DNA of 64,000 nucleotides from Haloarcula hispanica ATCC 33960. GTDB lineage: Archaea; Halobacteriota; Halobacteria; Halobacteriales; Haloarculaceae. How positions within the stretch are numbered: position 1 is the first letter of the stretch; each line of letters begins with the position of its first letter. The stretch covers positions 1,798,001 to 1,862,000 of the forward strand of contig NC_015948.1 in NCBI RefSeq assembly GCF_000223905.1, in the 5' to 3' direction. Shown here one piece after another: positions 2,336-18,820 of the stretch. Both the position numbers and the translations under genes were made by a program. The notes below the pieces were generated by a model that saw only the letters and a list, made by a program, of their open reading frames with translations, did not search any database and was not told the origin of the DNA.

Positions 2336-2402
2336 CGGAGAGGGCTCAGTCGATCACTGTCGATTGGTTGATTGCGTCGCAAACGACGTATTTTTCGCTG
2401 GA

Positions 2403-3016
2403 ACACCACCCTACGAGTGTTCTGACAGCCCTATACAAACGATCCGACACCACCCTACAAGTGTTCTATCACCACCCTGCAAGTGTTTCCAGTACGACTA
2501 CAACTGGACCAGAACAGTGGACAGGTGTTCACACCCCACCCTGCAAGTGTTCGCACGGGGGTATGCGTCGTGCGGGGGTGCGCGAGCGTCTGAGATTCCC
2601 GAAAACACCACCCTGCAAGTGTTTTTGAGACGTTGTTCGGAGTTCCGATGCGCCACTCTAACACCACCGTGCAAGTGTTTCCCGCACTGGGAGAGACAGA
2701 CGAGAGCCCACGGGAACACCACCCTGCAAGTGTTCAGGAAAGCCCATTTTGAGCGGTTTTCCCGGCGAATCGGTGTTGACACCACCCTGCAAGTGTTTTC
2801 GAAACGGAATACCGGGAGGCTGTGGTGGAAACGGACGGACACACCGGTCTGCAAGTGTTCTACACACTGCAGTGGAGGGTAACTGCCACATAATCGCTCG
2901 GTAGCACTCCGGGTTCACGGTCTACTGTTGGCACACACACACCACCCTGCAACTGTTCTGGACTGTACAATAGAGGGACTGCCACTGAACACACACACAC
3001 CACCGTGCAAGTGTTC
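2403..3016 (+). repeat. array of eleven ORB-like 20-bp repeats downstream of cdc6
   Basis: Eleven copies of ACACCACCCTGCAAGTGTTC (last base C or T), all in the same orientation. They sit at 2403-2422, 2447-2466, 2469-2488, 2533-2552, 2605-2624, 2661-2680, 2716-2735, 2779-2798, 2841-2860, 2939-2958 and 2997-3016. Start-to-start spacing runs from 22 to 98 bp. Variation: CTACG at 2403, CTACA at 2447, CCGTG at 2661 and 2997, CGGTC at 2841, CAACTG at 2939. The ACAC and GTGT ends form a short dyad. The same repeat occurs in and beyond the cdc6 promoter, so these are binding sites of the neighbouring Orc1/Cdc6 protein. The whole 2336-3057 stretch holds no believable gene; open frames across it merely translate the repeat. 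Confidence 0.9.
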
Positions 3017-3057
3017 TGCCATGTGAGTCGGTGGGGGGAGGGGAGCAAATACGCTGG

Positions 3058-4386
3058 CTACGTGAACTGCCAGAGGTTCTGTTGCTCGTCGTCGGTCGTG
3101 TCCGGTGCCTCAAACTCGGTGGCCTCGTCTTCCAGATAGTGTTCGAGTATCCCGTTGACGTTGCTCGGCACGGCATCGCTGTAGGACGACTGGAGCGCGG
3201 CGTTGATGATATCGGTCGCGTCGTCGGTGACCTCGTAGATGTACTTGCGCCCACCCTTGCGACCGAGGTTGCGTTCGGCCGAGCGGACTAGCCCTTGCAT
3301 GGAAAGCTGGTCGAGGAACTCGTAGATCTTGCGTTCGGATTTCACGCGGCGGCCACTCGACTCCGCAATCGAGGAGTAGAGGTTGTAAATCCGCTTTGTC
3401 GACGCCTCGTGTTTCGGTTCGATGAGCGCAAGCGTCGTCGCGAGGTACGTCAGCGCCTGCTGTGAACTCAGGTCGTGCTCGAAGTAATCCAGCAGTTCGT
3501 CGGTTTCGATAGTGTCTGTCGCCCGTCGCGTATGTGCTTCTGTCACACCGTCCGCGCCCTCCATCCGCGCGTACTCTCCGGCCTTTTCGAGGATTCGGAG
3601 TCCCTGCCGAACGTCGCCCCGTTCCTGCGCCGAGAAGGCCGCCGCCAGCGGGACGACATCTTCGCCGAGCACGTCCTCTCGGAACGCAATGTCGGCGTAG
3701 TAGCCGAGAATGTCTCGGAGTTCCGTTGCGTCGTACGGACCGAACTTGATCTCTCGCTCCCCGAGCGTCGATTTCACTTTGGGTTCCAGCACGTCGACGA
3801 ACTTGAGGTCGTTCGAAATCCCGATGAGTCCGACCTTCGCATCGGTGATCGGCGTGTTCTCGTTCGCTTCGGCCCGCGGCAGTTCATACAGGAAGTCGTT
3901 CCGCGCGTCCGCTGGAATGTTGTCGATCTCGTCCAGGATGATGAGGACGTTCCCACCCACGGCTTCGATCTCCTCGTAGAGGAACTCGAAGACGCTGTCA
4001 GTGCTGTAGCCGCTCTCGGGGAGTTGGTTCTCCGGATCTCGGAACTCGTTGACGAGTGTGTTGACCAGGGCGTACGCCGACCGGTAGTTCCGGCAGTTTA
4101 TCGGACCGACAACGGTGAGTGGGATGTCCTCGGCCTCGGCCTTCTCTTCGAGTTTGTCCCGTACCCACTTCGTAACGGCAGTCTTTCCGACCCCCGTTGG
4201 GCCGTAGACGAAGACGTTGTTGGGGTCGTGGCCGACGATGACGTCCTGAAGCGCGTTGATGTAGAACTCGATCTCCTCGTCGCGGTGAAAGATCGTATCC
4301 GGCGTGAACGTGTCTTTTTTCAGCGGTTGCTTTCGTTCGAAGATCGCGTCAGTCCCATCGAACGGGTTCTCGTTCACGTCGACCAT
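3058..4386 (-). CDS. cdc6E: Orc1/Cdc6 family replication initiator
   Basis: 442 aa from the ATG at 4386 (MVDVNENPFDG...). AAA+ ATPase that recognises origin recognition boxes and loads the MCM helicase. Visible are the Walker A motif (VYGPTGVGKTAVTKW), Walker B (VLIILDEIDNI), sensor regions (LIGISNDLKF), and a C-terminal winged helix (roughly the last 90 residues, ending LWQFT). Thirteen repeats lie on its two sides, eleven after its 3' end and two ahead of its 5' end, and one inverted copy lies beyond an A/T-rich region, so it is the cognate initiator of this origin. The symbol rests on the layout resembling Haloarcula hispanica oriC2-cdc6E as I remember it. The family assignment is certain; the E paralogue label less so. 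An upstream in-frame extension to 4446 would run through the TATA box and is rejected. Confidence 0.93.
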   Translation of the reverse strand: MVDVNENPFDGTDAIFERKQPLKKDTFTPDTIFHRDEEIEFYINALQDVIVGHDPNNVFVYGPTGVGKTAVTKWVRDKLEEKAEAEDIPLTVVGPINCRNYRSAYALVNTLVNEFRDPENQLPESGYSTDSVFEFLYEEIEAVGGNVLIILDEIDNIPADARNDFLYELPRAEANENTPITDAKVGLIGISNDLKFVDVLEPKVKSTLGEREIKFGPYDATELRDILGYYADIAFREDVLGEDVVPLAAAFSAQERGDVRQGLRILEKAGEYARMEGADGVTEAHTRRATDTIETDELLDYFEHDLSSQQALTYLATTLALIEPKHEASTKRIYNLYSSIAESSGRRVKSERKIYEFLDQLSMQGLVRSAERNLGRKGGRKYIYEVTDDATDIINAALQSSYSDAVPSNVNGILEHYLEDEATEFEAPDTTDDEQQNLWQFT

Positions 4387-4410
4387 CGTACGCCACCTTT
4401 TGAGTGACTC

Positions 4411-4418
4411 TATATAAA
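4411..4418 (-). promoter_or_regulatory. TATA box of cdc6, abutted by an ORB repeat
   Basis: On the minus strand TTTTATATAG-type sequence is centred ~28 nt before the ATG at 4386, giving a nearly leaderless transcript. The ORB-like repeat at 4424-4443 begins 6 nt upstream, where TFB would contact the BRE. Binding of Cdc6 there should compete with transcription initiation. Confidence 0.65.
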
Positions 4419-4423
4419 ACCAG

Positions 4424-4443
4424 TGACCACCGTACAAGTGTTT
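4424..4443 (+). repeat. ORB-like repeat in the cdc6 promoter
   Basis: TGACCACCGTACAAGTGTTT, a diverged copy of the 20-bp repeat in the same orientation as the downstream array. It is followed at 4444-4454 by a half copy (CAAGTGTTTTC), so the site may bind more than one protomer. It covers the presumed BRE region of the cdc6 promoter. Confidence 0.75.
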
Positions 4444-4469
4444 CAAGTGTTTTCACGCCGAACAGTCAC

Positions 4470-4489
4470 ACACCACCCTGCAAGTGTTT
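4470..4489 (+). repeat. ORB-like repeat, left flank of the unwinding region
   Basis: ACACCACCCTGCAAGTGTTT, a consensus copy. With the inverted copy at 4823-4842 it brackets the A/T-rich segment, the usual arrangement of inverted boxes around an archaeal duplex unwinding element. Confidence 0.88.
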
Positions 4490-4822
4490 CTTCGATCCCT
4501 CTGGAAAACAGCCACGAGCAGTCTGCTGCACCGACCCTTCATCTAGAACACTTGAGTCCTGCGATTCTCGACTGTCTCGTTCTGGACCGTATCTAGAACT
4601 AGTAGCACTATTATATATTTTATGGTAAAGGCAATAAAATCATATTCACCATCGAACGTCCACCTCCATAGAATTCAAGCTACAAGTGCTTCAGAGCACT
4701 CATATCTGCATATACGAATAGTCTTCTGATCATGTACTCTCAGTAGAATCGAACAATCTGCCATTTCTTTAAGTATGCAGAGGGAGCCTCCCCCTCCCCA
4801 CCCCCACCCCTGGAAACACCGA
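4490..4822. other. replication origin core: A/T-rich unwinding region and C/G tract
   Basis: This non-coding stretch lies between oppositely oriented repeats. Positions 4591-4660 are markedly A/T-rich (for example TTATATATTTTATGG at 4611-4625 and AATAAAATCATATTC further on), unlike the GC-rich surroundings. ATCTAGAAC occurs twice, at 4541 and 4591. Degenerate half boxes occur at 4546 (GAACACTTG, inverted) and 4680 (CTACAAGTGCTTC). A C-rich tract at 4788-4810 (G-rich on the minus strand) follows the inverted box on its inner side, like the G-string described for haloarchaeal ORBs. No gene is seen from 4387 to 5004. Confidence 0.8.
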
Positions 4823-4842
4823 GAACACTTGCAGGGTGGTGT
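4823..4842 (-). repeat. inverted ORB-like repeat, right flank of the unwinding region
   Basis: The minus strand reads ACACCACCCTGCAAGTGTTC, a perfect consensus copy and the only one in this orientation. Reading on along the minus strand, a G-rich tract (4810-4788) begins 12 nt later and faces the A/T-rich region. Opposed boxes around a weak-duplex region are the signature of an archaeal origin. Confidence 0.88.
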
Positions 4843-5004
4843 GTGTGGGTCCCGCTTTTCCACCGACATTTCGGTATAAAAGTACTCAGCGTCGATACGG
4901 CATGAAACCCCTGCCATAGCGAACGGTTGGTCATATAGCGAGCTAGCCCGTCACCCGCGGCGCACGGCACCGCTCTTTACTTTCTGACAGCCCGTAGACA
5001 CCGT

Positions 5005-16866: not shown

Positions 16867-18651
16867 TTACGAGTCGTCTTGTTCTTCCTGGCCGCCGTCA
16901 GCGAGCAGCGACGGGTCCTTCTCCGGTGCTTCGGCTTCGAGTTGCTCGTCGAACCACTGGAACTCACGGTCTAGCATGCCGTCGCGTTCGAGGTTCCACG
17001 GGTCGCCGTCCTCGACTTTCGGGCCTTCGAGCCAGGACTGGACGATGTTCCAGACGAAGAACAGCTGGCCGATGAACAGGATGAGTGCGCCCACCGTCGC
17101 CGCCTGGTGGAAGGTGCTGACCTGCGTCAGCGGCGCGATAGCGCCATCAAACTGGTAGGTGGCGTACCGGCGCGGCATCCCCAGATAGCCGAGCGCGAGC
17201 ATCGCGAAGAACGTGATGTTGGTCCCGACCATCGAGAACCAGAAGTGCGCCTTCCCGAGCGTGCGCTGGTACATCCGCCCGGTGAATATCGGGAACCAGT
17301 AGTAGATGCCGGCGAAGGCCGCGAAGCCGATGGCACCCATCACGATGTAGTGGAAGTGTCCGACGACGTAGTAGGTGTCGTGCAGAATCAGGTCGACGGG
17401 AATGGAGGCGAGGAACACGCCCGTAACACCGCCGATGATGAAGTTCGAGACGAAGCCGATACAGAACAGCATCGGCGTCGTCAGGCGCAGGCGGCCGTTC
17501 CACATCGTCGTGATCCAGTTGAACGTCTTGACTGCGCTCGGTATCGCGATAGCCAACGAGACAGCCATGAATGAGGCCCGGAGCCGCGGGTCCATACCCG
17601 TCGAGAACATGTGGTGGGCCCAGACGCCAAAGGAGAGGACCCCGATGGCGAGCGTCGAGTAGACGACGAACTTGAAGCCGAACAGTTTTCGGCCGGAGAA
17701 CTTCGGCAGGATGAGGCTGACCAGTCCCATCGGCGGCAGGACGAGGATGTACACCTCGGGGTGGCCGAAGAACCAGAACAGGTGCTGCCACAGCAGCGGG
17801 CCGCCACCCTCGACGGCGAAGAACGTCGTCGAGAGGTTCCGGTCCAGGAGGAGCATGACGATGGCGCTCCCCAGCAGCGGGAACGCGAACAGGATGAGCG
17901 CGGACTGGGTGAGGATCGTCCACGAGAAGATGTCGAGGTTCGCCCAGTTGACCTCCTCGTTGCGCTCCGTGAAGATGGTCGCGATGAAGTTGATCGCCCC
18001 CATCGTCGCTGCAACGCCCGAGAGGTGCAGTCCCAGCAGCATCAGGTCGACGCCGGGGTTCGCCTGCTCGACCGACAGCGGCGTGTACATCGTCCAAGCC
18101 GTACGAGCCGGCTCGATCATGTTCTCGGTTACCGGCGCGAGGAAGAATCCGGCCCAGATAAGCAGGGCCGCCGGCGGAAGCAGCCAGAACGCGATGGCGT
18201 TGATACGCGGGAACGCCATGTCGTCAGCCCCGATGAGCAGGGGGATGAAGTAGTTCGCGAACGCCGCGATGATGGGCGTCCCGAACAGGAACAGCATCGT
18301 GATGCCGTGACTCGTCAGGATGGAGTTGTAGGCGTTGTTGCCGAGGATGGCCCCGGCGGGCGTGACGAGCTGGAGGCGGATGAGCATCGCCATGATGCCG
18401 CCCACGGCGAATGCGATGACCGCGTACACCCCGTACAACAGACCGATGTCTTTGTGGTCGACGGTTGTTAGCCAGCGAATGATACCTGCGGGTTTCTCAC
18501 GGTTGATGACCGCTGCCTCGTCACCCGTGACGGCCCCGCCACCCGCGAGCGGCGTATACGAACGCCAGTTCTCGACACGGGTGAGAAGCGCGGCGACGCC
18601 GACGAGGAGGACGGCCATCAGCCCCGTCAGCACAATATCTCCTGCTACCAT
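16867..18651 (-). CDS. cytochrome c oxidase subunit I (heme-copper oxidase)
   Basis: 594 aa, twelve or more membrane helices. It reduces O2 to water and pumps protons in the cell membrane. Heme and copper ligands are visible: SHGITMLFLFGTP (low-spin heme His), GHPEVYILVLPPMG (CuB His with the Tyr crosslink site and proton-channel Glu), AHHMFSTGMDP (CuB histidines) and HDTYYVVGHFHYI (heme a3 and heme ligands). An extra N-terminal helix precedes the standard VDHKDIGLLYG start, and an acidic tail closes it. Genes for subunits II and III are not in the window; small membrane genes flank it instead. Confidence 0.95.
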   Translation of the reverse strand: MVAGDIVLTGLMAVLLVGVAALLTRVENWRSYTPLAGGGAVTGDEAAVINREKPAGIIRWLTTVDHKDIGLLYGVYAVIAFAVGGIMAMLIRLQLVTPAGAILGNNAYNSILTSHGITMLFLFGTPIIAAFANYFIPLLIGADDMAFPRINAIAFWLLPPAALLIWAGFFLAPVTENMIEPARTAWTMYTPLSVEQANPGVDLMLLGLHLSGVAATMGAINFIATIFTERNEEVNWANLDIFSWTILTQSALILFAFPLLGSAIVMLLLDRNLSTTFFAVEGGGPLLWQHLFWFFGHPEVYILVLPPMGLVSLILPKFSGRKLFGFKFVVYSTLAIGVLSFGVWAHHMFSTGMDPRLRASFMAVSLAIAIPSAVKTFNWITTMWNGRLRLTTPMLFCIGFVSNFIIGGVTGVFLASIPVDLILHDTYYVVGHFHYIVMGAIGFAAFAGIYYWFPIFTGRMYQRTLGKAHFWFSMVGTNITFFAMLALGYLGMPRRYATYQFDGAIAPLTQVSTFHQAATVGALILFIGQLFFVWNIVQSWLEGPKVEDGDPWNLERDGMLDREFQWFDEQLEAEAPEKDPSLLADGGQEEQDDS

Positions 18652-18820
18652 AGTCGTCCTTCAGGACTGGGACATTATCAAAGGGTCGATTCCTGCAGCA
18701 ACGATCATAAAACACGGCTTCCATCCGGCGGTGAAACCGCAGAAAGGAGGGACCACCTCGCACTGTCATCCGGTGGCGACCGCGGTCGGCCTTCGAAACG
18801 GTTTGTCTGGAACTGTCAGA

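Follow-up and report, generated by a model that had tools for sequence, protein, structure and literature searches.

What sort of unit is an orc1/cdc6 gene flanked on both sides by copies of one 20-bp repeat, how would its activity be restrained, and how did it come to lie where it does? The question is posed by a stretch of 64,000 nucleotides from Haloarcula hispanica ATCC 33960 (the window; G000:C3:1798001-1862000), within which all box and gene coordinates given here are counted. The locus is almost certainly a second active chromosomal origin, made up of oriC2, an initiator of its own (Cdc6E) and the array oriC2D downstream of the initiator gene. Its parts are as follows:

2336 to 4965, no strand: complete inserted cassette (right end approximate), flanked by the acyl-CoA dehydrogenase gene acd (to 2335) and a metallo-hydrolase gene (from 5005)
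2336-3057, boxes all on the plus strand: oriC2D, ORB-rich intergenic region of 722 bp with 11 boxes, downstream of cdc6E (box search; PMC3936714)
3058-4386, minus strand: cdc6E (HAH_1857), Orc1/Cdc6-family replication initiator, 442 aa (TIGR02928, Pfam, structure relatives)
4411-4418, minus strand: predicted TATA element of cdc6E (TTTATATA), 25-32 bp before the start codon (sequence)
4424-4451, plus strand: composite promoter box, a full box (4424-4443) plus the extra half box CAAGTGTT (4444-4451), at a fixed position in relatives
4470-4489, plus strand: ORB, left arm of the oriC2 core, 98% identity in relatives
4550-4785, no strand: A/T-rich presumed unwinding region, G+C 0.36-0.44, sequence poorly conserved
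4787-4813, minus strand: G-rich tract (C-rich on the plus strand) just inside the inverted box, partly conserved (sequence)
4823-4842, minus strand: ORB, inverted right arm of the oriC2 core, exact consensus copy, 99% identity in relatives

An initiator gene between two clusters of boxes

With ACACCACCCTGCAAGTGTTC as the 20-bp consensus and up to three mismatches allowed in an unambiguous copy, 13 boxes were found where 100 shuffles gave an expectation of 0. A further box at 4424-4443 (TGACCACCGTACAAGTGTTT) has five mismatches and a box-matrix score of 26.6 bits, and is also backed by conservation; the 14 boxes that the initial annotation had counted around one Orc1/Cdc6 gene are thus all accounted for. 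Twelve of the 13 unambiguous copies lie on the plus strand, the one at 4823-4842 being inverted. Eleven plus-strand copies are located downstream of the gene, between 2403 and 3016 (starts at 2403, 2447, 2469, 2533, 2605, 2661, 2716, 2779, 2841, 2939 and 2997), and two plus-strand copies (4424, 4470) and the inverted copy (4823) upstream of it, which corrects the layout: cdc6E sits between the two box clusters. The 20-mer ACACCACCCTGCAAGTGTTT occurs in identical form at 2605, 2779 and 4470. The span 2403-4842, put forward earlier as a complete origin, does hold an origin, although the true unit is slightly longer (about 2336-4965). The box had also been described as unlike the canonical haloarchaeal ORB; this is right and already known, because ORB sequences are particular to the Cdc6 family in question (PMC3528665).

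In a whole-genome search at up to three mismatches, boxes occurred at this locus only, bar one isolated three-mismatch match on the 489-kb replicon (C1:119858), which, being a single weak match outside any cluster, was treated as chance. An inverted half box near 4546 (AGAACACTTGAGTCC) looks conserved and was not claimed, its exact form being absent in H. salina (G004) and in one other genome (G016). An Rfam search of the window gave no matches, and the rRNA operon falls outside it.

Cdc6E scores 365 bits against TIGR02928 (cut-off 181) and contains Cdc6_lid and Cdc6_C above the curated Pfam cut-offs; through the Pfam and NCBIfam matches it has the AAA+ ATPase, Cdc6 lid and C-terminal winged helix of the Orc1/Cdc6 family. 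Its relatives of solved structure are Sulfolobus Cdc6-1 (2qby_A) and 2v1u, and the gene tag HAH_1857 is named in the literature (PMC9458426). Compared with 13 other Haloarcula genomes, the first two codon positions of cdc6E are 99.7% identical and the third 75.6%. The protein (window 3061-4386) is 97-100% identical within its clade, exceeding its neighbors, though deletion of its gene reportedly has no evident effect on laboratory growth. In a protein tree that is poorly rooted, with outgroup branches far too long, the Haloarcula forms of Cdc6E separate from the others.

The initial annotation had named oriC2-cdc6E with a restraining ORB-rich region downstream and had placed it in a relative of H. 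hispanica; the former holds, the latter does not. The locus is oriC2-cdc6E-oriC2D of H. hispanica itself and is already known. The published description gives 11 ORB elements within a 722-bp intergenic region downstream of cdc6E (PMC3936714), as found here at 2336-3057; of the two rRNA operons, one is reported some 20 kb from oriC2 and the other some 211 kb from oriC1, both pointing away (PMC4441112). These positions fit the 16S genes at C3:1779451-1780929 (minus strand, about 22 kb from oriC2) and C3:213159 (plus strand), with the oriC1 initiator near C3:691. It is from the 722 bp with 11 ORBs and the operon positions that the identity follows, and no difference from the published locus (Wu et al. 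2014, PMC3936714) was found in species, gene, downstream region, number of downstream ORBs or rRNA operon distance. The assembly comprises three replicons (2,995,271, 488,918 and 405,816 bp; 3,890,005 bp in sum) and has 12 Cdc6_lid matches, one a short fragment, in agreement with three replicons bearing 11 cdc6 genes. The H. hispanica N601 plasmid (405,815 bp) has its initiator at base 28, and so does contig C2 here.

The core has the layout of a haloarchaeal origin adjoining an orc/cdc6 gene: boxes at 4424 and 4470 (plus) and 4823 (minus) flank a segment at about 4550-4800 in which G+C drops to 36-44% against about 60% around it. Both the A/T-rich core and the inverted box with its G-rich tract (about 4787-4813), noted at the outset, were borne out. 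One point speaks against the reading as an origin: across 400 kb around the locus, GC and AT skew show no sharp turn exactly at oriC2; the AT-skew minimum lies about 10 kb away, and the detrended GC minimum at the rRNA region.

Restraint of oriC2 by the downstream array

Firing at oriC2 requires Cdc6E, with inverted boxes flanking the A/T-rich segment, and is seen as a marker frequency peak, lost on deletion of oriC2 or cdc6E, as well as in ARS assays; either oriC1 or oriC2 alone suffices for the chromosome (PMC3936714). By contrast, oriC2D alone does not replicate. It lowers the copy number of oriC2 plasmids in a manner graded with the number of ORBs, and can be deleted only if oriC2 is also removed (PMC3936714). 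The authors concluded from these genetics that restraint is probably exerted by titration of Cdc6E, which would be drawn to the putative binding boxes of oriC2D and so lower oriC2 activity (PMC3936714). To this we add that oriC2D may be copied almost at once after firing, and the decoy sites thereby doubled immediately, because no more than about 1.5-2.4 kb separates the array from the core.

The array carries marks of constraint on the boxes themselves. In comparison with 13 other Haloarcula genomes, identity within oriC2D is 92.5% for box columns against 65.8% for those of the spacers (p=4e-56), the boxes nearest cdc6E being almost invariant and the distal ones variable. Haloarcula species have about 8-12 downstream boxes, and more distant relatives 2-10; in all relatives, the array adjoining the 3' end of cdc6E keeps one shared box orientation. 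The 11 boxes show no helical phasing (R=0.02 at 10.5 bp).

The main rival to titration is handcuffing, in which oriC2D would restrain oriC2 by pairing with it through bound Cdc6E, as in iteron plasmids. Its best support is the common box orientation: direct repeats facing one way in all relatives are not required by simple titration. Incompatibility of oriC2 plasmids with the wild type, a trait that reminded the authors of plasmid origins (PMC3936714), and the location of relatives on plasmids also speak for it. On the other hand, the boxes are not helically phased, and an effect graded by box number fits titration (PMC3936714); the fall in oriC2 plasmid level caused in trans by chromosomal oriC2D is compatible with both models. 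We therefore regard handcuffing as unlikely, if still the alternative that deserves most attention.

The position of the array between the convergent genes acd (plus) and cdc6E (minus), with one box abutting the cdc6E promoter, could also be read as serving mainly transcription, through termination or regulation of converging or flanking genes, any effect on replication being secondary. This is very improbable, as oriC2D becomes deletable once oriC2 alone is gone, which links what is essential about it to the origin; the published deletions largely refute the idea. That deletion of cdc6E or oriC2 causes no evident laboratory growth defect (PMC10989794, PMC4441112) might even suggest a degenerate or dormant origin with relic boxes, but the published marker frequency analysis, together with the ARS assays, refutes this, and boxes and initiator alike are strongly constrained within the clade, leaving that reading next to no credibility. 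Titration thus stays the preferred account of oriC2D.

In restraining initiation as a cluster of initiator boxes outside the origin, oriC2D resembles datA of E. coli, which titrates DnaA, a comparison drawn by the original authors (PMC3936714); they differ in that datA binds DnaA and is a locus separate from oriC, whereas oriC2D adjoins its own origin and initiator gene. At oriC1-cdc6A on the same chromosome, inverted ORBs with G-strings likewise bracket an A/T-rich region, but the ORB core differs, and there is a positive G-rich enhancer where oriC2 has a negative downstream array (PMC3936714). The oriC2 locus is a published model for the restraint of an archaeal origin. Directly repeated initiator boxes, incompatibility and a linked initiator gene are hallmarks of iteron-controlled plasmid origins. 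All three are shared by the oriC2 locus, which nevertheless uses an Orc1/Cdc6 initiator instead of a plasmid Rep protein and has no regular helical spacing.

Arrays after cdc6E-like genes take other forms elsewhere. In Halobellus inordinatus (L046), eight boxes follow such a gene at regular intervals of 46-47 bp, and a second cluster of three boxes (18604-18763) lies about 7.3 kb downstream of it, before a regulator-like gene. On plasmid unnamed2 of Natrinema gelatinilyticum (L047, 11390-13290), the array is split by about 1.7 kb with a transposase-like open frame; in L048 it is unsplit.

A composite box at the cdc6E promoter

The box nearest to cdc6E starts 56-59 bp before the ATG in 26 of 26 promoters (some species being present twice in this set, from two collections), whereas the distance of the next box varies from 100 to 136 bp. 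A T-rich, TATA-like element lies about 6 bp from the promoter box, at a distance constant to within 1 bp in the 26 promoters, and an extra half box (AACACTTG type), 9 bp further out than the promoter box, is kept with at most one mismatch. Plasmid-borne copies and members of other families, with Cdc6E identity down to 74-75%, have the arrangement too.

A fixed distance to TATA/BRE is the behavior of an operator and therefore suggests autoregulation by Cdc6E, as far as can be judged from sequence. Archaeal repressors and activators are both able to bind next to the BRE. The full box and extra half box could accordingly mediate feedback of Cdc6E on cdc6E transcription, be it repression or activation. 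On balance, we favor a picture in which Cdc6E would control its own transcription through this composite operator, and in which such DnaA-like autoregulation would be joined to datA-like titration in one self-sufficient cassette of about 2.6 kb, acquired by a single insertion with no further genes and since then serving the chromosome as a second origin. With a box so deeply conserved at an initiator promoter, a few point mutations would be enough for a direct test of autoregulation in an archaeal initiator.

Neither the composite box at the promoter nor the precise place of insertion is part of the published descriptions consulted; what is added overall is the insertion site, the fixed promoter box, and the constraint on boxes of single orientation among drifting spacers.

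The insertion site and its relatives

In 10 Haloarcula genomes that lack cdc6E at this site, the genes flanking the cassette, acd and the metallo-hydrolase gene, are direct neighbors separated by 52-108 bp; in five outgroup genomes of the family the separation is 40-54 bp. The 14 cassette-bearing genomes form one clade on the acd gene tree (support 100/99, one change), and close Cdc6E relatives were found only in members of the genus Haloarcula among 116 genomes sampled from the family. Because the flanking genes are adjacent in related species and outgroup genera, these comparisons of gene order imply, as the simplest account, a single insertion of about 2.6 kb that carried no other genes; the whole unit would then have entered the chromosome once, as a compact cassette, in an ancestor of Haloarcula in the narrow sense. 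This fits the published proposal of acquisition in the Haloarcula branch and confines the event to a subset of the genus in its present definition. The empty site does not support the authors' speculation that oriC2 arrived with much new content, unless that content was later lost. So clean a site indicates that a chromosome can acquire a second origin in the form of a bare cassette of origin, initiator and decoy.

The closest relatives outside the clade are often on plasmids, namely in H. pelagica (258 kb), Natrinema gelatinilyticum (165 kb) and Natribaculum breve (105 kb). In Haloarcula pelagica (L091, L013), the chromosomal site is empty, but the 258-kb plasmid bears a cdc6E of 75% identity that is accompanied by a box array.

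The same gap between acd and the metallo-hydrolase gene is filled by other genes in four Haloarcula genomes (L098-L101; G002, G008, G010 and G022) and seems to take insertions repeatedly; in G002 and G010 it contains a gene that looks PIN-domain-like by eye, G008 has a related stretch there, and the gene found in G022 is histidine-kinase-like.
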